From Membranipora membranacea (Eukaryota > Bryozoa > Gymnolaemata > Cheilostomatida > Membraniporidae): 64,000 nucleotides of DNA. The DNA is taken from contig OU612069.1 in the NCBI GenBank assembly GCA_914767715.1, forward strand, positions 3,660,001 through 3,724,000, in the 5' to 3' direction. Made by a program: the position numbers and the translations under genes. Below are positions 8,096 to 37,400 of the stretch, one piece after another; positions within the stretch are counted from its first letter, which is position 1; every line of letters starts with the position of its first letter. The notes under the pieces were generated by a model that worked only from the letters and a program-made list of their open reading frames with translations, made no database searches and was not told the DNA's origin.

Positions 8096-8099
8096 CTTC

Positions 8100-10022: not shown

Positions 10023-11429
10023 AAAATATTTGGGTTTATTTCTTCATCGGAAGTATCATTGAAGTTTTGGTGTTATAAGTGAGACTGATATTTTGAAAAT
10101 AATCAATTTGAATCGTCATAAATTGGCAAAGTAACGCTGCTAATCAGTATGATCATCTTTAAAGCCTCACTCTCGTTATTGTAACAACTATTTGACGATA
10201 GCATAGCATTAGCATTTTTTTAATGAATAGGCCTGCTAGGCCTGCAAACCATTTGTTATTGTTACATTGATACAAATACTAGATTCTTTTAATCAATTTA
10301 TGACCCTGACTTGATCATAATTTTGACAACTTCTTAGTTCCCTATTTAACGACTGCCTACAGTTTGAATTCGATCAAATTAACTACTGTATTTTCCTGTG
10401 TGTAAGTAGCTGTTTTGATGCCCAAACACATAGCAGCATAACGGCACCGTAGGACGAGCTGATGGCACTTCTTATTACCCTAGTAGACTATCCTGGAACG
10501 AAAAAAGCCTGACCACAACTGTAACGCTGATGCCAATGGTACTCCAAATATTGATCTCAAAATTGAATTGACCTCTTCAAAATTGGGAGTTGCCTTTCAT
10601 CATTTAAAATAGGATATGCGGGAGAAGTTTCTTTCGTTGCACTTCATGAAATACAATGTTTTATTGGCTGTTATGTTGATGTCATTTGAAGCGTCTCACA
10701 AGAAATGATTGATTGCTTGAAAAAATCAACACCCAAGCCTGCAAAAAAGGAAACACGAACCTACCAAGATTGGCTCGGACTACTTTCAAAATATTGGCAT
10801 GACATCATCAGTTTCTGTACTTGTAATTAAAGCCTCAAAGGATTTCCTGAAGGTAGGATTTATGTTTCAATTGATTTTCGCTTTTTTGACCCGAAGCATT
10901 TTCATGATGTATGACTAACTAACAATTGAGTTACAGCGTCTTGCATACTCACCCTGTTATTTATTCAAACTGATATCAGGGTCCGCCTGTTGAGTAGGAA
11001 GTGGGCCCTTCGGTAGGCAAGTGTTGAATGCGCTCGTTCGCTGGCCCTCCCTCATTCCGCCCACAAACTAAGTGCATATTAGCATAGGTATTGAAACTTT
11101 GACCTTAAGGAAACTCTTGCTGCCCACTCTTCTTGATTCTAGCCAACATTCGTGTTATTTAATTTTCCACACACACAAGCTATCAATGTACAAATGATTA
11201 TGCTGCGTCACCAACAATAAGGAGCAATTTCAGAGCCAAAATATTATCTTAATGTTTTGAGTTAAGTTCCATCGTTTACAATGCTGCGTCTGTATCATTG
11301 CAGATCTCTTCGGATGTTGATAGCAGTTCTCAACTAATCACTGAGTTCTGGTCTCTTATTCATTCTAAGCAGTTCAGATTTAGATCATTATGCATGATCA
11401 AAAAATAGCCGCAGCATGAATGTTTGATA

Positions 11430-14400
11430 ATGCCTGACTCCCCCTCTAGAACACCAAGCCCCAGAAGAGATAGAATACCCTCACCGAGTCTCAGTACCAA
11501 TGCAGGCAATGCAGAACAACGAAGTTCTTCTTTGAAAACAGTGAATAAGAGTCCTGATCCTCCTCCGTTCTTGTCTCCTTCTCCTTCCAGATCGAGATCG
11601 ACTAAGAATGATGACAAAACACGCAGGGCAGATGCCAGACCTGGCTTTCAGGTAAATATTAGCAAGTATGAGGTTTGCTTAATTCGAGCTAGGAACCTAA
11701 TTAAGCTAGCTAAGATTAGAGCCTATGAGCAGTAAAGACAGTGGGTGAATATTAGCTAGCAATTAAGCATGATATTCAAATATAACTTCTCCTCCTATGA
11801 TAATATAACGCTATACCTCTAGACGGTGGGAAGATAGTAATAGCAGTTGATCAGAATTGAGAATAGAGAAAGCGCCTTATTCCACCTTAATCAAAGAAAT
11901 CAACCCGGTCCTCATGATCTAATATCTGAACTATCTAACTGTACACCATGCTGACTGTCTATAGCTGTCATAGGTGGTCATTGGTTCGCTTTGTTATCTA
12001 GACACATAAACAGAAATACAGAAAGATCCAGTTCTGCATGGGCGGTAGCCAGTTTGATTAAATATACATAATAAATATGCTTTGTTGGTGCAGCCCCTAC
12101 AGCACGACCAGCAATGCTTTATAAGACTCGGCTGGTGTAAGACATGTCCAAATCAGCAACTGGCATGTCGTGTCTTACAACACCAGTGCCCATTCAGAAC
12201 AGGATAATTTTTTTGTAATAAACCGTTTGCAGGGTAATCGTAATCAGATACAAGATGATATGGAGAGATCTCGTAACAAGAGACTTCAAGCTATCAATGA
12301 CTTGAAAAAGGATCAGAGTAAGACCACAAACCATCAGCAGTATCTTGATTTTGTTCCACGGAACCGTTCCCCTTCACCAAGGACAGCTAAATCTGGAAAT
12401 CCATCACTGATAGCATCAACTTCGGCACGATCCGGTGAGTGAGAACAAACTAAAATATTGGCTTGAAGACAACTAGGAACCAATGACAACCATCTCTGCA
12501 GTCCGCACTTCCTCATGCAGTAGGGGCGTAGTGATTTTTTCGAGTATGCCTTGAGTTCTCCTAAGTATTTGTAAAGCAAAAAGCGTTGAACATTGTTAGT
12601 CAAGACATCTATTATTTATACTGCGTAGTCATAGCAATATTGATAAGCTTTTGTGCTTGCAGGCAAAAGTAGCAAGTCCTCAAATTTATCTGGAAAAGGA
12701 CCAGTAGTATCGGGTAGCATTAATCCACCCACCAGATCTCAAGGTAATAACCCACCAATATGTGTAACATTGTTTCAGGTTATTGATAGAGGTAAAACCC
12801 CTAATGTTGATCACTGCATGAGCCCTTGTACACCTTTCACTGATCATTGCCATTTACAGCAATCCCCAAGTCAAATGGATGTGGATAACAGCAAGTTATC
12901 AGATGATCATGTGAAAATAATTAGCCATAACAGGCATAAAGTATTTGCTCAACAACAGTCGCAAATTGATAATACTGTTATGAAGGCTTGTCAAGCCATC
13001 AAAAAACTTGAAGGACAGAATTCAAATAGCGCTGATCATAGCAGTCCAAATCAGCATATTATGAACAGTTCATCCCTAAAGAGAAATAAGAGGACAGCAT
13101 TGAGTGATGGCAGCGATGGTGAGCAAGAAGCAATCAATAAAAAAGTATTGCTTTGAAGATGCGGGATCTGAAATCAATGGATGGAGGCTGAAGAAGAAAG
13201 TCAAGATAAGACTTCCACCAGCATTCTTGATATTCCACCATAGATGACAACAATCGAGGCCATTCAGAGACAACTCTTGAATGCCTTGGGTAGAATTAAT
13301 GCATATATCTCAGTAAAGAAATCAGAGATATTAATACACCTAAAAGATCAGCAATTTATCCATCATCACCAGTCCTTCTGCGTAGTTCATACGCTACCAC
13401 TTTACAGACAAACAACAAACCTAGCGGTGACACATTTAAACCAGTCACATCAGTCACATCAAGACCTCCACCTAGAAGACGTCATAATATAATATTCGAT
13501 CCCAAAAAGAACATTCTAGTTATTGTAGAAAAATATGGTGACATCATTGCAAATGATGATGTTATACGAAGAGCGATTGGAGGTCTAGACAGTGATATAA
13601 CCATTGAAACAATCAGCAGGAGCAGCACTAACTGCTTCAAAAAATTTTGCGTTCAGTTGACAGACACACGAATGGTTGATTCTGCACTCATCAAATGGTC
13701 CTCTGAACTGTTTGGTAAGTCATCGGCTAGGAGAGTAATACCACAAGGCGTTAATGTACCCAAATCAATTGGAGTCATCAAAGGGGTACCACTCTTTATT
13801 TCTGATGAAACACTCTGTAATGACCTTGAAGATGGAGGATTCGGTAAAGCAGCAGTGAAAAGAATTCAAAAGGGTAATAAGCCAACCAGAGCAGTCAAGG
13901 TAAATTTTGGTGACCATGGTCTCCTTACAAAAGCTATCAAAGAAAGGATAAGATCACAAGGATTGACATTCACTGTTGATATCTTCAACCAGTCTGCTGT
14001 AGTAAGATGCTACAATTGCCATCAATTCAAACATACTGCATCATCATGTCCAAAAACCAAGAAATGTCACAACTGTGGCGAAACTTATCACCGTGAGAAT
14101 TGTCAAGAGATAACAAAATGTGTAAATTGTAAAGGAAACCACCGTTCCTCCTCTAGTCAGTGTCCAGTGTATATAAAGTTATATAATAATGTCTTCAATA
14201 GGGCTAACCATGAAATTAGCTCACCATCCACAAGTTTCATATGACTAAAAAATCATAACTCAAATAGCAATTATCTTAATGACTGTTCACCCCCTATGAA
14301 GCCATCAAAGAGCCATCTTGTCATTCTATACACAAACTGCAGGTCACTAAACAACTGGAAACTTGATGAATTAACTCTCTACACACACACCCACAAACCT

Positions 14401-17400
14401 GATATAATCTGCCTGACAGCAACATGGATTGATGATATCAAAGAACAATCTACAAACATTGATGGATTCATTAGCTATTTCTGCAACAGTAAAAATCACA
14501 TTGGTGGAGGTGTTGCTATCTTCGTCAATCAGAGCTTTACAACCAAAGTCATAGCCTCTCACTCAACCAAAATTGTATCAGCACTCTGGGTCTTGACAAG
14601 TGTAGGACATCATAAGCCATATATTATATGCAGCATTTACCATTCTCCTGGTTCAGAACAAGAGACAACACTAGAATATATCCAATCAATCGTCCTCAAA
14701 CTATCCAAACGACATGCGAATGCACAACTCCTAATCTGTGGTGATTTCAATAGATTGCCAATAGATGAACTCGCTACTCAATTTGGACTATCAAATGTAG
14801 TTGATTTTAACACCCGTGGAGATGCCATGTTAGACATCATTCTGACTGACATACCATCAAACAAACACTGTGACAAACTGGCCCCGATCGCTAACAATGA
14901 CCACTGTTGCATCCTGCTGCGGGGAGAAGGGAATCTACCAAGCCGCTATGTCAAAAGACAAAAGAGACTTGTCACCCTCCCTCGCAAACTTTTGGTTCTG
15001 AAGGAATTTGCTGAACAGTCTTGGTCCTCAGTACTAAATGCCCAGGATATAAACACCAAAGTTCATTTAATGACCACAACAATATATAATATTCTTGACA
15101 AACACTGATCTATAAAAAACCTTTTGACAAACCTCCCTTGATGAGCGACACACTCAATAAAGTAATATGTGCCACTCTGCACTTTTAACTGCTAACACTT
15201 ACAAGCTAGACCATGTAAGTTTAGGGGAAGTCAAATTCCTCATGAAAAAGCTAGATACTTCAAAAGCTACATCAAATGAAGACTTCCCTACATGGATATC
15301 TAAGGAAGGCATAGAAGATTTATAGTTATTCCACTACATAACATTATTAACTGTGCCCTGGATTCCAACTCTTTCCCTGATTTTTGGAAAAAGGCGCAAG
15401 TAGTACCAATCCCTAAGAATAAAACACCATCAAAATACAAGGATTATCGGCCGATCAGAAATTCCATCTCGGCAAACTACTGGAGCAAGTAATTATATCC
15501 AAAATGAAATCTCACCTAGCAGAAGTAATCAATTCTAATCAATATCCCTACTAACAGAGACTCAGTACCACTGATGCAATTCTGCAACTGATAGATCACT
15601 GGACATCCATTCTCGACTCTGATACCAATGTTAAACTAATACAAAATACATGCCTTGGTTTTTCCAAAGCCTTTGATTGGATGCAGCACCCTATACTGAT
15701 ATCTAAAATGGATTCTCTTTTAATTCCAATGTCATTGCCTTAGTAGAAAGTTTTTTGGAATGAAGACAACAATGTGTAAAATACTGTGATAATTTTTTAG
15801 AGTACAAACCTATTCAAGTAGGGGCCCCTCAAGGAACCAAACTGGGCCCAATCCTTTGGTTAATTTATGTTAATGATTAAAATGCTTCTGATTATGTTAC
15901 AAAATGTATCAAATATGCTGATGATACAACCTTTTATAGGCCTATTATTGACCCATCCACTGAGAACATATCTGATGCAATACTGTTAGCAAACACCTGG
16001 TCTGAGCAAAACAATATGATTTTTAATTCTAACAAAACTGTGATGTGATGTGGCATTTACAAACAAACCTGCTATGCACCTTGGTGTCACCTATGGAGAT
16101 GATGATATTTTTATTTCTCCCTCGGAGCACACCAAGTTTTTAGGCGTTATTGTAGACAACTCACTAACATTCAGTAATCATGTCGACTATGTAATATCAA
16201 AATGCTCACAGCGCTTATACCTGATGAGATTGCTGAAACGAATGGGCATGGATAGCGATGGCCTGAAAACCTTCTATGTAGCCAATATTAGGTCTGTAAT
16301 CACCTACGCCTGCCCTGCATGGTACAATCTATTACCAGACACTGACAAAATAATACTAGAGAGGATACAGCGCTCTGCTACTAGGATTGTGCTGCCATTC
16401 GCTGATAACTATGGAAAGAGGATTGACGATCTAGCACTACCAACAATAACAACCATCCTGCACACCCATTCTATTAAACACTTCACTAGCCATCGACCAA
16501 CATCACCCTCTGAACTCTCGCATTAAGATAAATAGAAACAGAAAATCTGCTTGAAGAGCAAAGATAGATAAATATCAGCCATCAATGTGTAGAACCTCCA
16601 AGAGACAAGACATTTTTTTAATTCTATATGCGATTTTTCAACTAATGCAACTCAAACAAACTTTTATTTTGTTTTATTTATTTTGTTTAATTTATGTGCC
16701 ATACTTTAGATACTATTAACCTATTACAGGTAGATATTAGAAATTAGGCAATAAAAAAAATAAATAAATAAAAATACCCTATACTCTAGATAGGGGCCTA
16801 CTATGAAATAAAGTGCAGCTAGATGAGCCTTTACAATATTTACACTTTATTCATTAGTCTGCCAGGCGTTGCTGCAACTCTCCTCAATTTGAGATTTTCT
16901 GCCATTGAAGAAAATAGCATGCACAAACATAAATTATGTTAGTTTCCGCTTCATACCAGAATTATTTAATCCTTCCCATATTTCATATTTACAGCAAACA
17001 TGTGTTTTGTGTGAATTTAGGAAGATCAGCAAAGTCCGCAATCTCAGACTACAGTCATGACAATGAACAATCAGTCTGCAAGGTGGGATGTACATGTATA
17101 GAGTGTTCAGATATTGGGGATCTTACTAAAGGCTACCATTGTGATACAGACTCCGAGCTATCTACGGAATATGTGGAGGCTGTCTATAACACAACGTCGC
17201 CGTCATCCTTTGCGGTTTATAAAGATTGTCAAGAAGATGACGGATATGTACAACATTGGATAAAAAGACAAGACCAAACCCGCATAGACGAGCGATTGGC
17301 TTGCTATGATGAAGAAAGGGACAAATATTCAATGAGCATAAGAAGACATACTATCTATAAAGACGATGATGCTGATGAAGATCTGGATGATAGATTAAAG

Positions 17401-17427
17401 GGGAGTCCAGATACGCATTTTTTGTGA
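11430..17427 (+). CDS. Short paralogue of the pseudo-PMM fusion protein, lacking the PMM-like domain
   Basis: Exons 11430-11651, 12233-12434, 12663-12743 and 17021-17427 join with matching phases into 304 codons including the stop. All introns are GT-AG. The protein has a Ser/Pro/Arg-rich N-terminus (RTPSPRRD, PSPSRSRST), a basic segment with RNRSPSPRTAKS, and a Cys-containing block (CKVGCTCIECSD, then YHCDTDSELSTEY). It ends in a short acidic tail (KDDDADEDLDD) and a private terminus where the downstream copy continues for another ~790 residues. An upstream non-coding exon ends at 10852 and a 5' UTR segment begins at 11304. The third intron is ~4.3 kb because LINE B sits in it. It is either a shortened expressed paralogue or a recent pseudogene; the intact frame favours the former, but expression is unknown. 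Confidence 0.65.
12875..14244 (+). pseudogene. LINE B ORF1 (gag-like zinc-knuckle protein), frame-damaged
   Basis: Likely starts at the ATG at 12875 (MDVDNSKLSDDH). A helical, Gln-rich N-terminus reaches 13156, where the frame is lost. Coding continues in other frames (EEESQDKTSTSILDIPP, a stop, then MTTIEAIQRQLLNALGRI), shifts again near 13,315, and then runs open to 14244. The C-terminal half carries three zinc knuckles (CYNC, CHNC, CVNC) as in element A. The usual role is RNA chaperone and RNP coat of the element. At least two frameshifts and one stop make this copy non-functional. Confidence 0.8.
14296..15108 (+). pseudogene. LINE B endonuclease domain (ORF2 N-terminus)
   Basis: Open frame of 270 codons with an APE-like fold: LYTNCRSLNN at the start (the N-C-R-S substrate motif), TATWIDD where ETW is expected, GGGVAIFV, CSIYHSPG, CGDFNRL and NNDHC. 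It begins 51 bases after the ORF1 stop, typical of a bicistronic LINE. The catalytic Glu is Ala, as in element A, and the SDH motif is NDH. The frame ends with a stop after the linker starts; the RT follows in broken frames. Confidence 0.8.
15109..16526 (+). pseudogene. LINE B reverse transcriptase, heavily broken
   Basis: Stops and frameshifts throughout. Recognisable pieces are LDTSKATSNEDFPTWISK (about 15,250), KYKDYRPI-like sequence (about 15,435), FSKAFDWMQHP (about 15,662), APQGTKLGPILW (about 15,830) and KYADDTTFY (about 15,910). A terminal open frame (16050-16526) carries KFLGVIVDNSLTFSNH and TYACPAWYN. The YADD pair is retained but the protein could not be made. Confidence 0.85.
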
Positions 17428-18534: not shown

Positions 18535-19466
18535 GGTTCTGATAATATTTCAGTGAAAATACTGAGAAAACATTCCCCTATATTGTTGACATCCATACTG
18601 ACATGATAAATAGATTTTTGGTTGAAGGAGTTTTCCCAAAAGAATGGAAATCAGCTTGAGTCACACCTATTTTTAAAGGTGGTGATAGAAATGTTCCTTC
18701 CAACTTTCGACCAATATCAGTTTTACCAATTTTATCCAAAATCTTTGAGAAACACATCAATATTCACCTTCAGACATTTCTGGATCTAAACTTGAGAGAC
18801 AAGCCAAAACTAAACTCCTTGGCTATATGATACACGACACACTTTCATGGACTGATCATGTTGAATATATTTCAAAAAAGCTAAAGGCTAATCTTGCAAT
18901 TTTTCAGCAATGCAGATTTTGCATTAGAAGGAAGGCGGCGATGACATTTTACCACCATTTCATTTTCTGTTATCTAATCTATGGTATTCATAATTACTAT
19001 AACTTAGCCCCTGCTCACATAACAAATCCAATATTTTTACTACAGAAGCGGGCTTTAAGGCTTATCGCCTTTGTTCATTTCATTCCAAAGCATCTGATAT
19101 CATTAATTTTTTTTTTGATTGATGAGTACTTTATTATTGATCTAAATACATTGAAAAATGTATATTACTGATCTGATTTACAATAATCATTAAATCTACT
19201 CAGCTCATCTTACCACAGCTTGCCAGTTATTTCTTTGCCATTTATGGCTATAAAATATGTTGGCTCCATGTTATATATGTGAGCAGTTTTCATTTAATAT
19301 ACATCGTTTTCAGGTGAGAGACACGCATTATCTGAAACCTCCATCGAACAATTTTCTTTGCAATCTTTCTATAATTTGCATTAGCCTTCCGCAACATATC
19401 AGGTCTGCAAACAATTTAAAGTTATTCCGACAATATGCATTCATGTATTTTAAGTCTGAGACATAA
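18535..19466 (+). pseudogene. LINE H reverse transcriptase remnant with an internal deletion
   Basis: Plus-strand pieces: STGSDNISVKILRK (about 18,530), FPKEWKSA, a stop, then [23 protein letters not shown] (about 18,640-18,725). The sequence then jumps directly to the post-palm region ([22 protein letters not shown], 18,815-18,890), so the palm with the catalytic Asp residues is deleted. The C-terminal part continues to 19,466 through another frame change (LPQHIRSANNLKLFRQY). This is a different LINE family from A-G. Confidence 0.75.
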
Positions 19467-21131: not shown

Positions 21132-21599
21132 ACATCCTACATCTGATAGGTTTCGAGGTCGGGTTGAGCACAGAATCAACATGGCGCCAGTCAGAATTCT
21201 TTGTTCACATTGTTGGTAGTTCAACAGCTCACCTCTAGAGTATCTTACTATAATATCTGATGGTTCTGGCTCCATTCTGCAGCTGATGATCTGAGATCTC
21301 TCATGTGGTAAGCATTAGAGCTGTAGACTATTACACGAAATGTGAACATAGATGATAAAATGCTCATTTTTGATAGAGCAGCTAAAAGCACGACTTCAAT
21401 TTTGTAGCCTCAGGCCTAGTATTTTGAGTGTTCTTGAACGAAGAGGCCTAAGGAAATTGTATCACTGACTCCCATGGTAGCCAAGCTGGCCATTATTCCT
21501 ATGTAGGTTTTCAAAATTTCATATAACCTCATTACAGTTTGGAGTTGTTTTTCATCGTTTTATGCGCATAAAGAATTCAAATATTTAATTTGGGGAGAA

Positions 21600-22373
21600 G
21601 TTTTTTAAGTAAGACATGAAATACAATGTTTCATTAGCTGTAATGTTAATAAGATTTAAAGACTCTAAAAAGAAAATATTGATAACTTGAAACAAACCAA
21701 CACCCAAGCCTGCAACAAAGGAAATATGATCCTACCAAGATTGGCTCAGAGTACTTTCAAAAAATCGGTGTGACATCATCAGTTTCTGTACTTCCAACTA
21801 AAGTATCAAAGGATTTCCCGAAGGTAAGATTTATTTTTCACTTGATTTTCTCTTTATTTGACTCCAAGCATTTGTATGATGCAGATCTAACGGTTGAGTT
21901 ACTGTGCCCGGCAAACTCTCCCTTTGATTTATTCAAATTGTCATAGGGGTTGGTGTCTAGGTTAGAGTGTCAACCCTTAGCTGGCCCTCCTTCAATCTGA
22001 CTGCAAATTTAAGTAGGTGATGGAGTATCAGCCTTAAGGCCACTTCCACTTCCTCTTGATTTTAATATCCTTGTCACTTAATCTGTCCAGGCGCACTAGC
22101 TATCATTTGTAGAAATGATTTTTCTGCCACCTCACCTTGTCATCACCGCTGCAAATAAGCTAAGTAGTTTGAAGTCAAAACATTGTCTTGAATCTTTTGA
22201 GTGGAGTTCCATCCTATACAATGTTATTCATGTATAATTGCAGATCTCTTCGGTAGTTGATAACAGTTCTCAACTAATCATTGAGTTCTGGCCTTTCATT
22301 CATTCCAAGCAGTCCAGTTTTCGGCTCACAACGCATGGTCCCAAACTTATAGGCGGAGCATGAGTGGGTAATA
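21600..22373 (+). other. 5' UTR region of the pseudo-PMM gene, with an upstream ORF
   Basis: An exon ending at 21823 (gtaaga donor) joins an exon starting at 22244 (after ttgcag). Both have counterparts in the duplicate (ending 10852 and starting 11304). In the duplicate, the joined exons hold an ATG-started upstream frame (MTSSVSVL...) that stops before the main ATG; here the same position is GTG. An in-frame stop at 22350-22352 precedes the main start codon at 22374. Confidence 0.6.
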
Positions 22374-25300
22374 ATGCCTGACTCCCCCTCCAGAACCCCG
22401 AGCCCCAGAAGAGATAGAATTCCCTCACCAAGTCTGAGTATCAAAGAAAGCGATGCAGAACGTCAAGCGTCCTTTGTGCTTAACATAGTAGATGTAAGTT
22501 TTATTTTATCTATTCAGCGAGAGTGTAATTAGTCTTGTCTCTAAGGCGCCGGGTTGTTATTTCCCCAAGGCTTAGTGACAATGTTAAGTAAAGCTGTTTT
22601 AACCTTAGTCTTGGTTCTATAACTAGCGACAACCAGCTGTCTCCCCATTGGAAGTGCGATGCATCCCTAATGTAATATGGTTGGGTCCGTTTATCAGATA
22701 TTGAGATCATTGGTTTGATGTTTTGAATCTATGGTGTATGATTTACAGGAAATGAGAAATGTGATTCAGGAAAGATAATGGTGGACAATATCATTTTGTA
22801 TCCTTTGATGATTCTTGGCTATTCAATCTTTGTATTTTTTGTGATAAATGGAACAACCTGGTCGATGGCATAACATTAGTGATCAGCTTGGTCAGACAGA
22901 TAGATATGTTTGACCCTTGTGATTTGACGCCTGTTTAATCTTTTGCAGGTCGATGACAGACGAAGTTCTTCTTTGAAAACAGTGAATAAGAGTCCAGATC
23001 CTCCTCCTTTCATTTTTCCTTCTCCTACCAGATCAAGATCAGCTAAGAATGATGACCCAACACGCAGGGCAGATGCCAGACCTGGTTTTCAGGTAAATAT
23101 TAGCTAGGGTTGAGTAATTAAGCTAACATGGGGGTCACTTAAGCTAGAACCAAATTTAGCTATCTAAGTTCCAAGCTTATGTGAGTTAAAGAGGGTGGGT
23201 AAATGTTAGCTAGCAATAAAGCATTATATTTTGAGTGCCCATTCAGAACAGGATAATGTTTTGTAATGAACCATCTGCAGGGTAATCGTGATCAGATACC
23301 CGATGATATGGAGAAATCGCGTAGTGAGAGGCTCCACGCTATCCAAGACTTGAAAAAGGGACATAGTAAGAATGCGACCTATCAGCAGTATCTAAACGTG
23401 AACAACCTAGTTCCAAGAAAACGTTCCCTTTCAAGAAATCGTTCCCCTTCACCAAGGAGAGCTAAATCTGGAAATCCATCGTTGAGATCATCAACTTCAG
23501 CACGATCTGGTGAGTGAGAAAGAACTGAAATGGAAAAGTTGGGTTAAAACAACGAGGAAACAGTAACTGCCTTCTGTGTTTTTTGAGCTATGCAGTGTGA
23601 ACTTTGACATTGAGATATTTTCCTCATGCAGTGATTGTGGTTGTTTCCCGCTATCCTGTACTCTTTCCATTATTTTAAAATTGGCATTGAGTTCTCCTAA
23701 GTATTCGAAAAACAAAAAGCGTTAAAAATGGTTAGTTAAGACTCAGCCATCTATTAGGCATAATTTCGATGCTTCGCTTTTGTGCTTGCAGGCAAAAGTG
23801 GCAAGTCGACAAACTTATCTGTCTCTAACTATGGACAGGGACCAGGAGTATCTGGTAGCATTAATCGACTTAACAGATCCCCAGGTAATAATTCACCAAT
23901 ATTAATTGTAACATTTTCTTATGTTGTTTTAAGGGTTCGGGGTTTTACTGAAAAGGAGTCAGTTGCTCACATTTCATAAATCATTATCGACCTGTTAAAG
24001 TTTGTAAATTTGCGTATTGTGATCTAAAAAATGCTAATCATGGTTGAAATCAACCATGAATTGTTGATGCACTCATCCAACCAGGACATACCTTGAGCCA
24101 AGACAATGATTCCACTTGATTCAATAGTCGGTCGTAGAAGAAATTGAGATAAAAATCACAGGGTTTCATCGCGAAGAATAGTTGGCGAGATAGGGGTGCC
24201 TTAGGGGCTAGGCTAGGCAATGCCTGAGCCGATTTGCTCTCAGTTTGTAGGTAAGTCGGAGCACACCTGGGGGTCCAACGATTACCAGTAGTCACTGGAC
24301 TGCAGTGGAATTCGAACCCACAACATTCAACACTTGCGCGCTGAAGTCCGGCGCTCTAACCAATTGAACCACCTCCTTTTCAACGTTCCCAAACTATTTT
24401 TAGCTTCCACTTCACGTCAGAATTATCCAATCCCCACTGAATCAGACAGAAAATATGTGTTTGTCATGTTTTAGGAAGATCAGCAAAGTCTGCAATCTCA
24501 AACTACAGTCAGATTCCAACCACAGCTGTTTCGGACTATGATCAAATGTTCTGCGAGGTCGGATGTACTTGTATAGAGTGTTCGGATGTTGGGGATCTTA
24601 CTAGAGGTTACCACTGTGACACAGACTCCGAGCTATCGACAGAATATGTAACGGCGGTCTACAACACAACGTCGCCGTCATCCTTTGCGGCTTATATGGA
24701 TGGTCAGGAAGAAAACGAAAATGTAACACATTGCTTCAAAAGGCAAGACCAAACCCGTGTAGACGATCTATTGTCTTGCTATGATGAAGGAAGGCACAAA
24801 TATGCAAAGTGCATAAGAAGATATACCATCCACAGGCCTAAAGCCCTTGTTTCTGAAGAACATTTGGATGATAAATTAGAACGAGCACAGGTCCTTGAAA
24901 AAGAGATTAGGGACAATCATGAACGAATCAACAAGGTAATTGGTGAGAAGGCCAAGAAGATAGTCCAAGATTCTCTGGTTGATCTCTTTGAGAAGTCCCC
25001 ACACTTGAGAGAATTAAGTGGAACTAACCGGAACTCCCGTTTTCTGAAAAAGCAAAAGGATATGGAGCAAAAGAAAGTGCAGCAGGAAACTGTCGAGATG
25101 GCCTATGATATCGTCAACAGTATCATGATAAGTTCTTTGGAGCAACTATTTCTAACTGCGATAGATTCAGGGGACCATGTCCCTCAGCCAATCGTGGTGA
25201 CTGATAGTCAAACAGGACCAAGATGGCCGCAGAGGTAAAAAAAAAAATTAAATTTTCTCAGTTCAATGATTCTTATCAATTACTCAAAGAGTGTTGTCAT

Positions 25301-28300
25301 TGTGGTCTTCTTCCAAATCTTAAACCTCCAGATCAAGTTCAGTTCACGGCCAATGCATAAGTGACGAGGGCATTGTCACTTTATCTCAACTTCCATGTTA
25401 GAGGGGAGGAATGTATAATTTTGGTGCATCGCCGCCTTTATACCAGATGTAACAATGACAATCTCAGAAAAAAGTAGATTTTAAACAAGCATTATTCATG
25501 GTTTATTGCATCAGTATTTGTGAAAAATTGCTCATTGCACTTTGCACAGGACTCCGTCGGGAATGGTTATTGTCTCACCACCGGTAATGGTTGATAGTGA
25601 ACATTGTACTGCGACAATTCACTCAACGCAACCTGGTATGGTTATAGCAGCAGCTCTGGGCAAAATAAATGTGCAGAAAGCTGGCGAAAAGGTGAGTACG
25701 CATACAAACTTAATAGGTTATAGGCAAGATAGTATGAGGGCCTAATGGCTGCCGAATTTTCGGATTCATCTCTACCTAACTCCAAATCTTTCTTACACAC
25801 TATTTGGAATAACTTCAAGAATATGATACCTATGGCCCTGGATAATGGTGGTCATAGGTAGTGAAGTACCAAAATTCAAAATCTGGCATCCATTAGTCTC
25901 TCAACCCGTTACTGGCAATTTCATGATTTCACATAGGTTCCTGCCTCCCCCCTCTCACTGTGGTGTTAGTGTCGTTGTCTATTTTGTTGCAATCAGGCAA
26001 TTCTGTTTATCAATTTTCTGATGTGAGACAGTCTTTTAAAATTGGCCTTGACCTTACATAATACTGTTTATGACCCAGACCCATGTGAGCGGTAGTTTTG
26101 GCCAGGACAAGGTAATAGTAGCAGTGGTTGAGCAGCATGGGGGAATTAAGAGGAAGAGTACAATTAGGACGCTTTCAAAAGCTGAACATGACCTGAAAAG
26201 CCTGAGAGAGGGAAAACTGTTTTCTCTTACGGTAAGTCGAATCAAAGTTTATTCTTGAAATACTATTAGATATTTTCAAATGTATTTTTGTTTCAATATC
26301 ACTGACCGGTTTGGTGTATTTTTATCACTTTTTAACCTTTGATACTCCATTAAATAGCATGAATGTACAACATGATCTCATTTTGCCTCGGATACTGATC
26401 AGTTTAGTGATTAATAAAATTAATAATATAATATATTATATCTGAGTGCTTGTATCACACTGCAGTACAGACTACTCAACTTAAACATCTAGGGATTCCA
26501 GAGTTGGTGGCAAGCGCTGATGTGACCTCACTAAATGGGCTTGCTGATCTCTTGAGCGAAGATTGAAAGGATCGACATCAGTGCATCATTACACAGCTTT
26601 GGGGGTACAAGAGGGTCAATTTTGGGCTTGTTTTGAAGCTGATTAGCTGGTGAACCACCTTTGAATATCCCAATTTCAGTTTCATGGATGCTTTAAAGTT
26701 TTAAAATGACGATAAACGCAATTAGATTTGACTGAAGGGACCAATGTTGATCATCTCAATTAACAGGAGATCTGAATCATGACCTCCGAATTGAGTGAAT
26801 AACAATTCATATACCGGCCAGGCGCCAACTTGGTCTTACCCACAGGTTTGACGCACATTATCACCCATTCATTTTCCACCCGTTTGTCAGACTATTAGGT
26901 TACCAGACAGGAATAAGAAGCAAATTAAAAGTATTATGAATATTATATATTCATAATACTTTTAGTTTTGCTTTCCATTTTTTATGTATGTGTGCATTAT
27001 TCATTCAAGATAAACATACCCAACATGGGAATCGCTAACTCCAGTGTCCGACCGGTGTACCTAAGCACTCTGAGGAAGGAAAATCTTAAAGAAGAGGAGG
27101 AAGAAAGAACCGACTCCTCCTCAACTCTTGTTGACAAAGTGGTATGATCTTCATTTGAGTGCTTGAAGTCTACCCAAAGACCAATGCATGTTATAGTCAG
27201 GCAGTTATCTATGATAAGATTTGTATGATTTGCATGGTAAAAAATAACAAGCACTTCCGGGAGACTGTGACATATTAATGCTGAGGTTTGGAGTTACTTT
27301 CCCTCATGGGACTACCTGACTATAACATGCATTGGTCTTTGCCAGTCTTTAAGATTATGCATTGTACAAATTAAAACCTGTACCAACATGTAACCAAAAA
27401 ATACAGAGCATCTGACCATCAACTAAATTGGACTTGCGTCATTCATCATTGCACCATCATATCAAAATAATGAAAGTCTGAGCTGTTGCTACGTACAAAA
27501 CTGCAATATTGCGGGCTATATCCAACAGTTCAGTCAAAAGCCGAACTGGAAGCCAGAACAAGATATTTAATCTGAGGTGGAGACTACCAGACCAAGCCAA
27601 CTGACTGAAACCTTACTCTTTCTTGCAGTCATCAGAACTTACGAGATACGATATCCTGCCAATGATTGATCCTGTACCACCTGCAAAACCAAAACCCAAA
27701 CTACGACGCAAGACTTTTCCTCCTATCACCGAGAAAGAAGCAAATATAAAAGTAATAAACAAAAGCATACACAGTGAGGGTAAGTGAAACAAAAGAAATT
27801 GTGACAACCTTGACCTTACAATCACATCGATCGTGTGATATACTAGGTTCTAATGTATGTATAACTCTGATCGATATAGCATGAATGAATTTGTGTAGCT
27901 TTAGTCCTATCAAGAAGAATTAGCTTCATCAACCCGAGGAGTTAAAGACTTTAACTTCTTGGTCAACCCAAGGTAATTTTCTGGAAATATAGGAGTGGTG
28001 ACACTTAAAAGACTCTCATGATACACAATCTAATTGATATATGATTGCTTGAATGATCATGCTGTCACTAGTGATGGCAAATTCTTGGTTCTGGTTTCGG
28101 TCTCATGAGACTTTCCCCCATGAGACACACACTCTTGATATATGTCATTATAAACACTGTATTTGTCATGGTTTTTGCCACGGTTTATGGGTTTTTTTAA
28201 ACAGTTTTCAATTTTATCGGCATCGATATAGGTCTCGGTCTAATCTCAACTTTTGTTGCTGTCTCTGTCTCGACCTGCCTCGGCAAAATCTGACAATCAC

Positions 28301-29288
28301 TAGCTGTCACCAGGCTATGTTGCCAAAGATAACATTGATTGTCTTCAGAACATCTAGAACACAACGTATTTCCAGCCGATGTGTTGACTCTGATCTGATT
28401 GGCTGTTGGGCAGGAAAGAGATCCAATGCCAGGTTGATCTAAATGTACCTATTGAGCTACAGTTAAAGTGAAACTGAATTAGTTTCATATTGACAACTTT
28501 ATCAAAAAGAACTTCCATGAAAGTACAATCTGACCAGGCATTGGCTCCCCTAACAACCAGTCAATCAGAGTCAACACATTGGCTACAGATGTCTTGTGTT
28601 CTGGAGCGAATCAATTTTATCATTGCCAATAAACCAGCAAACAACATGGTACTCCCTATCTCCAGAGGGAGTGCAATGGTCTGAAAAGTTCTCATTCATT
28701 TGATTGGCGCAATACGAGTTTATAACCATAAAATATAGACTAAAAGAGTACCCTATATCTATATTACTCCTATTATCAATAGCTAGCCCATCGAGAGTGC
28801 AGCAATGGAGCCATACCGGCTTCGGAAATAAGACTACTTTACAGTGTGATAACCATAACTACAGTCTTCTGTCACTAAATGGCTCACAGCAGCAGAGCTT
28901 TGTACACTGCTCTAAAGCCGTTGACTCATCAGCGTACAAAAATCTGAACTCACCACTACCAAGGGTGAGGACTTAAATACACTGTGAAGTAAATTATACT
29001 AATTTATTTATTTATTGAGGTTTTCTTAAAGTTTATAATTAAATTAACATATCTTGTTGACTTGTTGACTGATAACAATTGTGAGGCAGAGATGTTGACT
29101 AACAATTCATAATAGCTGTGGTAAAATATTACAGTAAACAAGTCTAGCAAATTTGGAATGCACATGTCTATTTAGCCAATGTGTTGCCTCTGATATTATT
29201 GGCTACTAGGTGGGAAAATGAGCCAATGCCAGGTCACACAGAGCACCTGTTACAATATAATGAAAGCGGAACAGAGTTATCTAACACT

Positions 29289-29320
<32 letters not shown>

Positions 29321-32300
29321 AAGGTAATTGAGGAAAATACAATCTGACCTGGCATTGGCTCCTTCCCACCCACCAGCTAATCAAAGCCAACACATTGGCT
29401 GATGTCAAATTAGCGTAAGTTAATGAGTTTTGCCTGTTCTCTTTACTGATGAAAGGAAAAGTATGCAAATGATTAGCCTGTCTTAACATGCTTTGTTCGG
29501 TGGTGGGGGGGGGGGGACAAACAAAGCATGTCGAGACAGGCTGGCAACTGATAAGCTTAAAGAATTTATTTCTACTACTGCAATGTGAGGTACTTCTAAT
29601 GAACCCTTCTAAATATTTCAGAGTAGCGATTCAAGTCCAAGATCTCCGTTTAGAAATCGTCAATCATCGTTTCCAAACAGCCCGATTTTATCAACAGATA
29701 CATTGTCAAGTATACGAGAGAGTGCAGATGGCCCCATCGTAAAACGCCAAATTAACACATTACGCCGAAGCCCACAGGTATTCCAATGCTTGCAGTCTTT
29801 AGAATCAAGTTTGTAGCTGACATTATTTTCAGAAAGATCAGAAGAGCGAGGGTAATCTTATTTGGCAGCATTTGGAAATTAGGGTCACTCTCCTCCAAAT
29901 GATAGAGGCGTACCAGTAGATAGCAGCTACTTATAATGTAGGAGATTATTTTATATAACTTTGTCTTACCCACTAGTACATACAAAATGTCTATCATTTC
30001 ATAAATCTGTTGGTTCATTCGGTTCTGATAGCCTAAATCATCACAAAAATGTTCATTTTTGTTTATTTTGACAATGTGATATGTATATTTTTCAGTCATC
30101 TATTCAAACCTACATGTTACTCTTTTTTGCAGAATTCAGTCGTCAGTCAGGCAGTGGCCATGAACAAGGTCAAGCAGTCATCATTTGAGCTCTTTTTAAA
30201 TAAACATAGCTCAAGTACATGTCATCAGAAAGCAAGCCCCAGTGAGCGAATATCGCTGAGGCGATGGTCCAAACAGTCAACTTACGTACAAGAGTTTCAG
30301 CCTGGAAAGCGGGACTCGAGATTGGCTAAGGTCCCTTTTGGAAAGCTACTCTTCCTGTTTGATGTCGACTCAATGCGTGATACTCTAAAACAGGTAAGGT
30401 TAGTCAGTCAGTCAGCAAATAACTAGAACCTGCCCTCTGCCCTTTTTTGTATTATATATGAATATATATAATCATGTTTTACATTACGTTCATCTGACAT
30501 CTCATGATTTATCGACCATTTTTATTTTGACAAAAAGTTGTAAACTCAATATGATTGCTTTTGTGTATTTAGCAGGTGAACTACGATGTTCTACGGCGCA
30601 CTGTTGACCTATGCAGACTCAGGTTAGACATTATGACATAACTTCAGATTTATAATTGCAATTTAAATGAACACCCATGCTCGTCTTGCTTGTGTAAACA
30701 TGTATGGAATAGATTTTTTTAAGAGATTTAAATCCTTTATATGCTATCAACCCACCAAGATTTGAAACTAGAGTAGGAGGGCTGGCTATTATTTTTGCTC
30801 TAATCTGATTTGCTGTTGCATTGGAACCTACCAGCCAATCAGAGCCAACACATTGGCTAGAGAAGAGGAGGTTAGGCTCATATCCATTGATGTTTGATGT
30901 ACAGCAGTTCTTTTCTGTTTTTCTGCAGAGGACTCGTTGGAGTTGTCACTGCTTGCTCTAGCTGTGTCAATAAGCAGATACTCAGTTTGGATTTAGATTA
31001 CATAGTCACAAGCTGCGGACAGCATGTGTACAGGAAAGGCAGCGGCAGCGACAGTAAAAAGGTAAAACCACTGACTCTTATAAAACCTTGCTGACGATAG
31101 ACATAACTTAAGTTGTTAGTACTAGGCATTGTGACAAGGCCTGCTGGAGTTCCGTGCATTTGGAGAGGGAACAAACTTGATCTTGTATCCACCAGTTGGC
31201 TGAATGGCAATGCTAAGCTATGCTTACTGGACCTTAAATATCTGACGATTTTCAAGAATATCGCCTTCAAAAAGAATTTTGTCTTCAGTATTAAATAATA
31301 TAATATATCATATCAAACAAATGATTTCGACAGATGTAGGCTTTACATGTAAAATGAAATCTTATCGATCTTTTGATCCGCTTGTCTTATAGACCATTAG
31401 ACAGCACGAGGGAGAGAAGCTGATGCAGAGGCTTGTGAACTTTGTACTTTACTATATTGGCTGGCTCAAACTTCCTTGCAGAAGGTGTGTTAATCTATTT
31501 AGTTTGGTAAAATCACAAGGTTTCATCACTCACCGCATCCCAAAGAATGGGTGGGAGATAGGGGGCTATGCCGCAATGTCTGAGCCAATTTGCTCTCAGT
31601 TTGTAGGCAGGTCGGAGCACACTTGGGGGGGGGGCAAACAATCCCCAGTAGTCAGTGGACTGCAGTGGGATTGGAACCCACAACCTTCAACACTTGCGCG
31701 CTGAAGACTGGCGCTCTAACCAACAGAGCCACCTCCTACTCCTTGAAAGACATACAGTTTTCTAGAGAATTTAGGATGATTCTGAAAATAAATTTAACGG
31801 TTCTCTAGATCAAATTGGATCCCTTAATCTTGCATCCGGAGTTGGGCATGACAGCTTAGGTGTATGTGAAAGTGTAGCAACTCCGAATGCAGTATTCCTT
31901 CATAGTGTGTTCAAACTGCTTTCTTTATAAAGTGCTTTGGGAGTTCTCTCCTGTGAGTTTCTAAAATTATTTTAAATCGAAAGACAGCAAAATGCTTCAA
32001 TCGGGTGGCGAAACATAAACAATTTCATACGATTTAAAAGCGGCTTGAGCCCATATCACTTACAGCAATATTGAATATCTCTGTGGATGCGGAATTATGC
32101 TTACACGTGCCTTCTTACCAAGTCTTTCTGTTTCTCCCACCAGGGGTCGCTTTGTGGATGTATTAGATTCTCACATACTGATATGCCCGGTAGGGAATGG
32201 CGGCTCATATCGTGACTACGATCAATTTAAACACTTGGACAATCGCGCAGGAATCCGTGAAAGCTTTATCAAGGCTCTCAACAACCAATTCAAGGAAACA

Positions 32301-33714
32301 GATCTTCTATTTACACTAAGTGAGTCTTGAGCAAGCTTGATCCATTTTGCCTGTATTCTGGGATGCTTATATTGGTATGCCGCCGGTGCAAAGACAGAAT
32401 AATCTCAAAATGCTAGCAAATCGGATGAAAACTTGAAGTCGAGTCAATATAGACATAACCCTACAAGATGAGGAAATTGATGAAAGGTTACAAGCCCTGG
32501 GTTACAAATTATGCGTCATGCTAAACTCCTTGTTAAGTTGCCAGTGTGTGAGCTCCAGGCTTGGAGCCAACACACTGGTTAAAGAAGACTCATGATAGAT
32601 AATTGATGTCAGAATGTGGTAAAAAAAGTGGTCTGGATCACTTCAAAAATTGGTTTAATATGTCTGATGAACAGACTGGAAGCCATTACATTAACCTTGA
32701 TGCATTGGCCATGAGCTCCACTAAACACTGTATTATCTCTCTATAGGTGGTGATCTAGAGATCAGAGGCGCTCCGCTTGGATGGGATTACGGACTCTCTC
32801 AAACAACAATAGGAGTAGAACCATTCAGTGATGTCATCATATTTAGCCCTCGTAATCTACCTAAGGTTTGTAAAGTTACTAAGATCACTACCTTATTAGC
32901 ATGATGGTCCCAGAAGCCATACTTGTTACTAAACTGGGTTGGTGTTTCAGTCTAATCCGAAAGAAAAAAATTTGTAAAGTAGTCTTTTGAACGGCACCAT
33001 ACCTCTCTTTGCTGTGTGTTTCTATGTAAGTTGGTGGGACGGTGTCATAGCCACTTTGGTACTCTGCAAGCAGAGTCCCTTAATAGGTAGGAATAAATGT
33101 TAAAACCATTTGGACCAACTATAGTGATAAGTGAAATTTTGATTTGATCAGGGGAGTTAGCATATTTATTTGTACGAATGAGGTTTTGAGTTGTGTCCCC
33201 ATATCATTTAATCAGACAACTCCCAACAAATCTTAGATTTCTCCAAGATTGTCTCAATTCACTATAACCTCCCTGCTATAACGAAGTGGTTTGGTGAAGT
33301 ACAATTATTTTATAACAAAGAAAGACATCTTGGAACTGAACTGTATCTAAATTAATAGCTCTCTGACAAGCTGTTCTTATTTGTATGGCCTGTTATCATC
33401 AACTGATTGAATCAGCTTTGACTAATTACACACTGTTTAAACAAAGAGCCTATTACTCTTCACACATCAGTTTTATCCACCGAGCTATGGAAGGCTAGAT
33501 AGTGCCATTTTATCTATTCATTCCATACCAGGGGTTAAAGCTATCAAACTGAGATAACATTTCCAAGTAAACATTTTACGGCATTCCTGTTATTCAGTTG
33601 GAGAGTATGATGCACAAAGGGACAGTGATCCGGGATATCAATGTGAGACACGTAATCACAGAAAGCAGTGCAAGTCTCCAGAAGGCAGTTCAAGTTGTCC
33701 TCTCTGTGCTATGA
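22374..33714 (+). CDS. Pseudo-phosphomannomutase fusion protein, 18 coding exons, 1068 aa
   Basis: Coding exons: 22374-22493, 22949-23092, 23281-23509, 23792-23884, 24475-25234, 25550-25691, 26079-26231, 27010-27141, 27629-27779, 28783-28964, 29622-29777, 30133-30393, 30576-30622, 30929-31061, 31393-31484, 32144-32319, 32747-32865, 33598-33714. All introns are GT-AG and phases match throughout, giving 1069 codons with the stop. The start is the first ATG after an in-frame stop. Residues 1-200 are Ser/Pro/Arg-rich and probably disordered (RTPSPRRD, RNRSPSPRRAKS). About 200-450 has a Cys block (CEVGCTCIECSD, YHCDTDSELS) and charged helices. About 450-810 is Ser/Pro-rich with little recognisable structure. 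About 820-1068 is a PMM-like HAD domain. I see no signal peptide or membrane segment, so a cytosolic or nuclear protein is likely. I recognise no named orthologue of the whole protein. The exon 26079 acceptor could instead be at 26106. Confidence 0.8.
24165..24378 (-). mobile_element. tRNA-derived SINE, family 1, antisense in an intron
   Basis: On the minus strand it begins with a tRNA-like head: A box in tggttcaattggttagagc (about 24,355-24,373) and B box ggttcgaattcc (about 24,308-24,319). A body follows with ctactggtaatcg, tccgacttacctacaaactg and gagcaaatcggctcag. The same head and body occur at 31,515-31,735. It lies in the intron before the large exon 24475-25234. Confidence 0.75.
26926..26964. 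repeat. AT-rich palindrome
   Basis: Arms taaaagtattatgaat and its reverse complement are separated by about 7 bases. It is intronic, 45 bases before exon 27010. Confidence 0.85.
27163..27352. mobile_element. TTAA-ended MITE (family M1)
   Basis: Ends ttgaagtctacccaaagacc and ggtctttgccagtctttaa are inverted, with the shared inner block caatgcatgttatagtcagg and its complement. Other copies lie at 37,988-38,034 (half) and 42,269-42,368. TTAA termini suggest a piggyBac-type source transposase. It lies in an intron directly after exon 27010-27141. Confidence 0.75.
28374..28575. mobile_element. Fold-back MITE (family M2), copy 1
   Basis: Left arm agccgatgtgttgactctga... and right arm ...tcagagtcaacacattggct are inverted for about 60 bases, with the inner block caatgccaggt and its complement. 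It is intronic. Confidence 0.75.
29174..29400. mobile_element. Fold-back MITE (family M2), copy 2
   Basis: Arms agccaatgtgttgcctctga and tcaaagccaacacattggct are inverted, sharing the gagccaatgccaggt inner block with copy 1. A (TA)n run (29,295-29,319) lies in the loop. Fragments of the same family lie at about 30,800-30,862, 32,541-32,579 and 55,688-55,745. Confidence 0.8.
29475..29542. repeat. Hairpin with a poly-G loop
   Basis: A 24-base stem (agcctgtct..acatgctttgtt with its inverted copy, two mismatched positions) encloses a loop containing an uninterrupted G run of about 12. It lies in an intron about 80 bases before exon 29622. Confidence 0.8.
31515..31735 (-). mobile_element. tRNA-derived SINE, family 1, second antisense copy
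   Basis: Same structure as the copy at 24,165-24,378: head with tggctctgttggttagagc and ggttccaatccc boxes, then the body with a run of about nine C (minus strand) and the ctgcctacaaactgagagc block. It lies in the intron between exons 31484 and 32144 of the same gene, in the same antisense orientation. Confidence 0.75.
32541..32579. repeat. Short inverted repeat (M2 remnant)
   Basis: ccagtgtgtgagctcca and tggagccaacacactgg pair with two mismatches. The arm words resemble the M2 MITE ends. It is intronic. Confidence 0.6.
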
Positions 33715-33935: not shown

Positions 33936-34407
33936 GTCTATAAGTCTTCTATGAAACTTCGACCAAGACTCTGGATATGCAACGGGTACAACTGTGCTAA
34001 ATGAACACCCTGCTGTTACTCAATACTGCCGTCATCATGGAAATATCACAGTATATAAATGACTCCACTTTTTCGACAGATCGATGATCGATTCACGAAT
34101 GTAGCTTTCGATTTGGAACAGAATATAATTTTATTGCCTAAAAACGAACATGTCATGTGATTATGTAACAATACAATCAGCATTAAAGAACACAACATAC
34201 ATTATATCATTGGCAATTCCATCATGACATCACTTCCTGCAGCAGGTAGGAAAGCATTAAAGGGCCACAGTGACCATATTTATGACAAGTTGAATCGTTT
34301 TTTCAGGCATGTGGTCGACACCGATTTAGGTTGGAAAAGCACAGTAACCTATGTTCAAAATATATACAGCTACTTACAATGTCTAGCCTCAGTATCATTA
34401 TTATTGA

Positions 34408-37400
34408 CTAAACAGGTGCGGGCTGCGCAGAGCCACCCTCTAACACCCTGAGTTCTTGTTGGAATTTTTGTATAGTCTCTCGGGCTTCCTTAAGCCTGTT
34501 ACTCATATCAGTGATTTCACTTCTCACTTTAGTCTTAGCAGCGTTCACCTTGTGTAAAGTCGTCTTCTTCTTTTCTTCAACTGGAAAGAAGAGGAGAGAC
34601 TCATTGTATTTTAGATGCAATGATACAACTAGCACTGAAGTTAAAGATTTAGAAGCTTCATAGTGATCCAATGTGAAAGTCATGAACATTCAAGGCTCAC
34701 ATTTTGAAGGGTTGGTGAAAGAGGGCTGCTGGATACACTTCTATTGATTGCTTTTCAACCTCATACAAAATTATTGTTATTGAGGTACATGGTTTTTGAT
34801 TGAAAGCATTGAAGTTCATTAAACAGGAAGGACTCCCTGACAGTCTAATCCTATGAAAGAAGCTGTTTATCAGAGTTAGAAACACTAAGTTTATTCTAAC
34901 TATCCTTGACTTTAAATTGCGCACACAAGCTGGATCATGCGCTACTTTGCATACTGTTAGGACCCAGTTAATATTAGAGGGGTTGCAAAATCTATCTATA
35001 AGTACTCTATAAGAAGTTGTCTTTTCTATTGTCATGAGCGCGTAACTTTGAATCACGCTGATGACAAAAGAGATCAACAACCTATAATATAAACGTGATA
35101 AGCCAATGCTGACATTTGGCAACCTGTCTATTATTGAACGAGAAACTCAAATAAAACACCATAGAATTACACTGTTAGTCCACACTGACATTGAGATACA
35201 CTATTAACATGTGTATCTCTGATCATTCGAGTCAATTTAGTAGCAGTAGGCCTAACTAACATGTACCAACCCGACTTAATAAAAATGAACAGGGGGCGTC
35301 AGACCAAACTCCTTGTGATGGTACTACTACTAAGTGAATTAATTCACTCTTTTTGATTGGCGATATACATGCGATAGTGTATAATGCGATCAGTGTGCCG
35401 TTAGTCACTAACTTACAGTCTATATCGTGTTTATAAGGAGCGAGGGTGAGAGGTCGAGTATTAGTCAGACACTGATGCATCATAGCAGAGGGTTCCTGGA
35501 ATACTAACTCATCATAAATCTCATTCACAAGGTGCTTCTTCCCTAACATTACATTAGAGTCGGTGTGGAATAACTTCAACTGGTGATATATCGTAACCTG
35601 AAACCAGAGAGACGAGCAATCATGATAATAATATTACAATATGTATATCATTATTATGTTATGATATAATAATATGTAGTGTTGTCATCCATGGATATAG
35701 AACTTTTACATAAGAGTCCATGTGAAATAAGTACAACTGATGGTATATTGTTACGTGAATCTGAAATGGAATGGAGAAACACAAAATGAGCGTAACTTGC
35801 AGGTATATTCGGTTTGAAGGAGAAAGGTTAGCATGTTAGTTTGAGGTGTAAGGGTGAAATATTTCTGGTATGCTCCAAACCAAACACATGTAAATTTATG
35901 TTCTAGAGGAAAAAACAAGTTATGCTATTTCTTATATCAGAAGAAACAAGTTATACTAACCGGTCGCTCATTAGGATCCTGAAAGTGTATTTTGATGACG
36001 ATCTCAAATTCTCCCCATCCAGTCTCCGTCACTTCATATGGAGGTTTTGTGATTACTGCAACAGATTATAAGAACTGAGAAACCAAAATAGGAGGTACAG
36101 ATAATCTTAATTTCAAATACTCAATTACCCAGCTCCATTTTGCCATGAAACGTCAGCGAATCAAACTATGGGGTAAAGCTAATAGTCCTGCGTACTATGC
36201 TTTTGTTATCATAAGTTCTAGCGATTGTTTCGATACTTCATGAAAGTTTGTTTTATCAAATAACTGATTTTATGATTTATTTCACCAGTTGACAATAAAT
36301 GACTTTGACATTGTACGCTACCTCTGGTTGATGTTGTGTAGCTTTCATGAAGTTTGAAGCTAACTTTCTTCACGTAAGATGACATGTCTTCGTTCTCATA
36401 AGGCTTCAGCATCACTGTCCACTACAAACACAAAGAGACACCACAATATATAATCAAACTCAATAAAAAAAACTTAATATGTTATGGTTCAATTAACAGC
36501 TAGGGGTGGAACGGATCAGGGTTAGGCAACCTCGGATCGGATATCGGATCAGTCGAGAAATTCAACCTCGGATCGGATCCGGATAACGCGTACAAAAGCT
36601 TAGTCCAAGCAGCTGTACTTTTGCACCATAATATACAGTTAAGGTCATTGAATACATGGATAAACAGCATCAACAATCTTTTACCTGAACCATTACCCTA
36701 ATTTAAATGCTCATGTATCTGCTTGGATATAATACTTTACAAGGACCAACTTATCACTCAAACAGCCACGGTGCAAGGATCACACAAACAGTTTATTTGA
36801 AAGTATCATTTAATGAGTACAAAGATCTCTTGACTCAATTTGCCAGGATCACTCAAACCCCGATGTTTGTAATCACTGAGTTTGAACAAACTCCCTGCTC
36901 ATATGTCCCAAACTCTCTGCTGTGATTAGGATAGGAATTGTCCTCCTAATTTGAAGAAGAGGATAACCTTGTACATCAAACTAGATAGTTTGTTACAGGG
37001 AACATCATTGGACAAAAATTAAGTCCCTATTCACAACGATCTGAGTAAAGATGCTTCTCTCAATTTCAGCAGAAAAACACATCCATCAAATTTAATCAGC
37101 AACAATATAATTAGCTATGGAAATAAGATAGGTATTGATTGCCTACTGATCACCACTGAGTGCTTTCAGCCAAACTCCATTATCTAATCTGAACCACAAA
37201 TTAATGACTATCATATCCGAAATTCAACTCCAACCTCAAGACGTCGTTCCACCCTATTAACAGCCAGGATATAATTCAGATGAAACGCATCCATTGTACG
37301 AACGATCGCCTCAACTTTTAGGTAAATGTCGTCAGAAGGCAACCTTTATCATTCAGAACTCCTGGTCATTATGGCGAGAAAAATTGTTAATAACAGCTAA

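Follow-up and report, generated by a model that had tools for sequence, protein, structure and literature searches.

A diverged phosphomannomutase-like domain as the probable C-terminal part of a large serine-rich protein in the bryozoan Membranipora membranacea

Eukaryotic phosphomannomutases (PMM) of the PMM1/PMM2 type (Pfam PF03332) are canonical single-domain proteins of about 250 aa. According to the available part of PMC4263888, Mg is bound by the acidic triad Asp19/21/226 (PMM1 numbering, used below unless stated otherwise), phosphate by PMM2 Arg134, Arg141 and Lys189 (143, 150 and 198), and the clasps are Arg21 and Arg141 of PMM2 (28 and 150). The R141H change in PMM2 (position 150) results in null activity, as stated in the accessible text of PMC12042452, and the D11A mutant of HAD5 is given as catalytically inactive in the accessible text of PMC8808168. 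The 64-kb window analysed here, from chromosome 5 of Membranipora membranacea (C5:3,660,001-3,724,000; coordinates below are positions in this window), contains a predicted gene on the plus strand in which a PMM-like domain follows a long N-terminal part. The reading preferred here, with a probability of roughly 55%, is a protein-coding gene in which a diverged, intron-bearing PMM duplicate forms the C-terminal domain of a Ser-rich protein of about 1000 aa, likely a scaffold or regulator. In this respect the locus would resemble the pseudoenzymes derived from metabolic enzymes, as far as the accessible portions of PMC10211241 and PMC5106787 describe them, since the fold is probably kept and the catalytic motifs are lost, but it differs from them in the fusion to a large Ser-rich protein.

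The gene model was rebuilt from the genomic sequence by exon joining. Its 18 coding exons at 22374-33714 join into 1069 aa with no frameshift and no internal stop, and GT-AG borders are found at 17/17 coding introns. The first-pass annotation of this DNA had proposed the same phases, start and end; its length of 1068 aa was not reproduced. The difference of one residue is consistent with two acceptors in tandem (CAG|CAG) in front of exon 13 (30573..30622), where splicing may occur at 30573 or 30576, and the shorter chain fits the second acceptor. Upstream of the coding part, the sequence and the upstream copy described below point to a likely 5' untranslated region (UTR) exon at 21740..21823 (start uncertain, donor after 21823), which lies within the duplicated block 21593-22461. 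Exon 1 (22244..22493) would then comprise a likely UTR part at 22244-22373 and a coding part at 22374-22493.

By sequence, the C-terminal domain belongs to the PMM family. Residues 875-1025 match the Pfam PMM model with E=1.4e-25 (90.9 bits against a cut-off of 22.4), a phmmer search against the PDB aligned the domain to residues 13-218 of human PMM1 (E=2.1e-24), and the domain was also found by the genome search. The earlier assignment of the last ~245 residues to a PMM-like domain is therefore upheld. The homology to human PMM1 is full-length, with 28% identity over 237 columns, and the HAD/PMM fold of the enzyme is probably retained. The domain is encoded by the end of exon 12 and by exons 13 to 18. 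Exon 14 (30929..31061), exon 15 with the cap helix (31393..31484), exon 16 with the cap domain (32144..32319) and exon 17 (32747..32865) are covered by the gene model, the PDB match and the PMM alignment, exon 16 additionally by the genome search, while exon 18 (33598..33714), which carries the C-terminus and the stop codon, is covered by the gene model and the PMM alignment.

The first-pass annotation had recommended looking for a separate canonical PMM elsewhere in the genome, and the search of 339,339,785 bases in 18 contigs revealed two. Both are stand-alone and intact-looking genes of 7 exons, situated at 29.21 Mb on C2 (250 aa) and at 6.46 Mb on C8 (258 aa), and both carry the canonical residue at 15/15 ligand and catalytic positions. 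They belong to the same family as the fused domain, which is neither stand-alone nor complete in these residues, and its identity to them is 26.7% (C2) and 23.4% (C8). The comparison of gene structures is informative about the origin of the domain. Four of the six introns of the fused domain occupy the same column and phase as introns of the C2 gene, which also has six, and the last one lies one residue off in the same phase; one intron of the fused domain has no counterpart in the C2 gene, and one of the C2 gene is missing from the fused domain. These shared introns, which it has in common with a canonical PMM, indicate a true PMM duplicate made at the DNA level, and an origin as a retrocopy or as a chance match is thereby ruled out. 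The C8 protein is itself 49% identical to that of the C2 gene, and one of its introns is absent from C2. Within the C8 locus (gene at locus positions 1875-6102), near-identical reading frames at ~4200-4950 suggest an intronic tandem repeat.

The residues of the active site were compared in an alignment of the fused domain with 122 canonical PMMs. This set consists of 119 of the best 120 relatives of the C2 PMM (a near-copy, P0001, was dropped), together with the C2 and C8 PMMs and PMM1, and it is thus biased towards C2-like sequences. The catalytic pair Asp19 and Asp21 is kept in the fused domain; the canonical GT after this DxD motif is replaced by SM. Arg143, Arg150 and Lys198, which are invariant in 122/122 canonical sequences, are replaced by Asn, Tyr and Tyr, and Arg28 by Lys. 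Asp226, also found in 122/122, corresponds to Lys, although the placement of the gap in this loop is uncertain; the first Asp encoded by exon 18 is its 13th residue and lies beyond the loop. The domain thus lacks the phosphate-binding Arg and Lys and the third Mg-binding Asp of PMM1 and PMM2. Eight further positions, presumably in contact with the ligand or in motifs (G22, T23, S54, D55, R132, S188, D190 and D218), are all changed. Among the seven residues named in the accessible part of PMC4263888, two are kept, one is changed conservatively and four are lost. Across the alignment, 39 columns are invariant in the canonical sequences, of which the fused domain keeps 18 and differs at 21. The losses fall preferentially on the ligand set, which is partly the authors' own assumption, with 2/12 of its invariant columns kept versus 16/27 of the others (Fisher p=0.018). 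The replacement of key ligand residues makes it probable that the fused domain is a pseudoenzyme and that mutase catalysis is unlikely. The first-pass proposal of a sugar mutase turned into a C-terminal module therefore holds for the position of a PMM-family domain and probably fails for a working mutase.

The surface used for dimerisation appears to be partly preserved. According to the part of PMC12195792 that is available, contact in the PMM dimer is made by residues 93-109 of PMM2, which form a cap helix, and by a strand at 116-122 of PMM2 (125-131 of PMM1); the PMM1 helix was taken here as 102-118, where the accessible text prints 102-128. In the fused domain, the interface strand has 3/7 identical and 5/7 similar residues, and R125, G126 and F128 are kept. 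The replacement of PMM2 Phe119, which is equivalent to PMM1 Phe128, by Leu disrupts the homodimer. The cap helix has 6/17 identical and 11/17 similar residues, a modest level that tells against a retained dimer surface. Set against the overall identity of ~25%, the retention at the interface is a suggestive, not a strong, sign that this surface is kept.

The coding nature of the 5' half of the gene is indicated by its partial duplication. Farther upstream, four pieces within 10620-17397 align to the 5' end of the gene (21593-24878) with 68-80% identity. The tandem partial copy (10620..17427, plus strand; coding parts 11430-11651, 12233-12434, 12663-12743 and 17021-17427) is split by retrotransposon reading frames between its exons 4 and 5, and splicing of its exons yields one reading frame of 304 codons, counting a stop that lies shortly past the end of the homology. 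The copy ends within its exon-5 homology; it lacks everything beyond the first part of exon 5, and hence the PMM part. Over 302 aligned codons, the synonymous divergence (dS) between the gene and the copy is 0.409 and the nonsynonymous divergence (dN) 0.150, which gives dN/dS of 0.366 (bootstrap range 0.253-0.518; 1000/1000 replicates below 1). This ratio, together with the in-frame splicing of the copy, implies coding sequence in exons 1-4 and in the first part of exon 5, and the remainder of exon 5 prolongs the same open frame as its duplicated first part. Exons 1-5 are under purifying selection. The tandem copy could be a short gene in its own right.

Exons 2 (22949..23092), 3 (23281..23509) and 4 (23792..23884) rest on the gene model and on the copy, which spans only the first part of exon 5 (24475..25234). 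The latter exon carries a Cys-rich block (GCTCIECSDVGDLTRGYHCDTDSELSTEY) that is nearly identical between the gene and the copy, followed by a stretch for which a model of exon 5 together with its paralogue proposes long helices, though with low confidence (mean predicted local distance difference test score, pLDDT, 41.7). The description of the N-terminal part as one long disordered region is thus too simple. An AKAP-like helix considered for exon 5 was dropped, as the pattern of such helices fits only in part. The proposed richness in Ser was borne out by the composition of the N-terminal part (13.9% Ser, 7.8% Arg, 6.6% Pro). As to the claim that the first ~820 residues resemble nothing known, apart from the PMM domain, the whole 1069-aa chain matches Pfam no better than chance (one hit, E=0.21), and a PDB search with residues 1-547 as the query gave no match at E<=1; residues 548-812 lay outside that search, so the claim stands for the part covered.

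The two halves are linked by exons 6-12, and whether they belong to one transcript depends on this interval. Exon 12 (30133..30393) is a single open frame, in which ~70 non-PMM residues lead straight into the PMM start (LLFLFDVDSMRDTLKQ); if the whole exon is used, the predicted PMM carries an N-terminal extension of at least ~70 residues. The long extension of the fused domain distinguishes it from the canonical enzymes. For exons 6 to 11, splice-site and codon scores were trained on the two canonical PMM genes, the tandem copy and the other exons of the fusion gene. Two codon training sets were used, one of 1163 codons (exons 6-13 held out, exons 1-5 and 14-18 in training) and one of 1482 codons (exons 6-12 held out); the tandem copy entered the splice training and the larger codon set, and not the first one. 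The noncoding background consisted of stretches outside the modelled exons, which makes it model-dependent, and its windows overlap, so that the percentages are rough. On this scale, exons 6 (25550..25691), 7 (26079..26231), 8 (27010..27141), 9 (27629..27779) and the Ser/Pro-rich exon 11 (29622..29777) outscore at least 99% of the 909 noncoding segments, which overlap and are free of stops. The donor of exon 6 is strong and that of exon 7 is within the top 0.3% of GT sites. When chains between exons 7 and 12 were searched without guidance, exons 8 and 9 were recovered at 3/3 penalties and exon 11 at 2/3, other small exons taking the place of exon 11 at the mildest penalty. The chain of the first-pass annotation scored best of six hand-made chains; the frame is likewise preserved, at lower scores, when exon 8 is skipped or when exon 10 is omitted and exon 9 shortened.

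Several results weigh against a single gene in this form. Exon 10 (28783..28964) is doubtful: its coding signal is small (-0.06 per codon with the 1163-codon training, +1.6 in total with the 1482-codon training) and is equalled by 33% of the noncoding segments, its acceptor is poor (top 53% of AG sites), and the chain search placed it at 0/3 penalties, setting several tiny exons there instead. Exon 8 is uncertain, as its AAG acceptor is weak (top 15% of AG sites). A competing frame scores equal or higher in exons 7, 8, 10, 11, 13 and 18, in exons 7, 8, 10 and 11 to the detriment of the model, though all of these frames except that of exon 18 contain stops. The chain score of 46.5 exceeds the maximum of 46.1 in 60 dinucleotide shuffles (0/60 reach it, middle penalty only) by a narrow margin. 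These observations leave room for two neighbouring genes, which is a possible but doubtful arrangement. Gene A would comprise exons 1-7 and terminate either by read-through, at 26258, or in a different last exon. Gene B would begin with MGIANSS in exon 8 (possible alternative start 27025) or with a Met encoded by exon 12, and its product would likewise be a diverged PMM, preceded by a shorter stretch of non-PMM residues. Apart from the weak acceptor, this division is favoured by the ATG of exon 8, presumably in a good context and followed by what we take to be a myristoylation-like MGxxxS pattern, and by an AATAAA at 26413 past the read-through stop of exon 7. Relatives of gene B (~517-555 aa) would, moreover, fall in the gap of the protein searches at 451-587 aa. 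Against it stand the exon 7 donor, which is in phase with exon 8 or exon 9, and the recovery of exons 8, 9 and 11 in a chain whose score no shuffle matched, narrow as that margin is; the 3.9 kb that separate exon 7 from exon 12 hold 7 AATAAA/ATTAAA in all, the signal at 26413 among them. One continuous transcript encoding one protein is therefore the better and the probable reading, with uncertainty about the exact middle exons.

The divergence of the PMM part can also be explained in other ways. In a tree of 29 PMMs, the fused domain stands on a branch of 3.9 substitutions per site, which makes its placement meaningless, and the placement was discarded; no close relative of the domain is present in the material compared. 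Both facts count against the preferred reading. So long a branch, together with the 21/39 invariant columns that differ, would be expected of a decaying gene whose PMM part is a pseudogene remnant, open by chance. Such decay is nevertheless very improbable, as ~250 PMM codons run over 7 exons without stop or frameshift despite the divergence, GT-AG is found at every intron, and 18/39 invariant columns are kept. An enzyme with altered chemistry, for example a sugar-phosphate phosphatase acting on the kept DxD pair, is somewhat less improbable but still unlikely. In many HAD phosphatases, activity depends on a nucleophilic Asp together with a Mg site, and both N-terminal catalytic Asp are present. 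However, the changes extend to the DxD context (GT to SM), the motif II Ser (to Cys), the Lys and the third Mg-binding Asp, which means that the general HAD set, as we take it to be, is damaged and not mannose recognition alone.

If the preferred reading of one gene with a C-terminal pseudo-PMM is followed, a PMM gene would have been duplicated with its introns, diverged and become the tail of a large protein. Its cap fold may serve as a dimerisation or binding module, in a homodimer or in a heterodimer with a canonical PMM, while the N-terminal part, flexible and carrying the Cys-rich and helical segment, may bind partners. The usual work of the enzyme could be left to the two canonical PMMs, and the protein would act like a pseudoenzyme scaffold, in which a dead enzyme is reused as a structural part. 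A more specific role is only tentatively proposed: a bryozoan-lineage pseudo-PMM may be the tail through which a large scaffold protein dimerises or senses a ligand, possibly paired with the canonical PMMs, and in this way sugar-nucleotide supply would be linked to signalling or the cytoskeleton. A natural PMM relative that had lost catalysis while retaining some of its cap-dimer surface would uncouple catalysis and dimerisation in the PMM fold, and PMM would join the metabolic enzymes that have found a second use as non-catalytic modules.

The first-pass annotation had named orthologues with the same fusion as support, and no such relative was present among the candidates scored. The search with the full chain gave nothing at E<=0.001 among the 7994 candidates with most shared words (proteins of ~588-1870 aa), and the search with the PMM domain gave nothing at this threshold among 359 word-sharing candidates of 141-450 aa, canonical PMMs being missed as well. 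Both results count against the preferred reading, within a coverage that omits 451-587 aa, where a relative could have escaped, and they do not imply absence from other bryozoans. A database without animals was rejected as the cause, because, with the canonical C2 PMM as the query, 7823 of 7987 candidates were identified as relatives, Watersipora and Bugula being among the best 120. The absence of fusion relatives is therefore informative within these limits of length and shared words. In the genome, the 20 listed matches to the whole protein (best candidates scored) all correspond to this locus or to its upstream copy. In the literature, as represented by titles and abstract openings, with most subscription papers outside, no PMM fusion and no PMM pseudoenzyme is described.

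The dropped record P0001 is a JGI entry of 1283 bases, and the protein that it encodes differs from the C2 PMM at one residue. This contig is too short to hold the C2 gene together with its introns and therefore looks spliced; public metatranscriptomes seem to contain transcripts from this species or a close one. Contig C18 is a mitochondrial genome of 14,741 bases, whose genes are open under the invertebrate mitochondrial code, the sole mitochondrial code tried. Downstream of the fusion gene and convergent with it, exons on the minus strand at 34400-36450 presumably encode a YEATS-domain protein (GAS41/YEATS4-like). Retrotransposon reading frames with reverse transcriptase and zinc-knuckle parts, which we take to be of the kind without long terminal repeats (non-LTR), are found at 2500-9100, 13300-16500, 17755-19171, 57406-59206 and 62027-63705, and they are apparently broken in places. 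An inverted-repeat-like sequence (ATTGGCTCC...AACACATTGGCT) is present in introns of the gene at 28330-28600 and 29180-29400, and by eye it resembles a miniature inverted-repeat transposable element (MITE).

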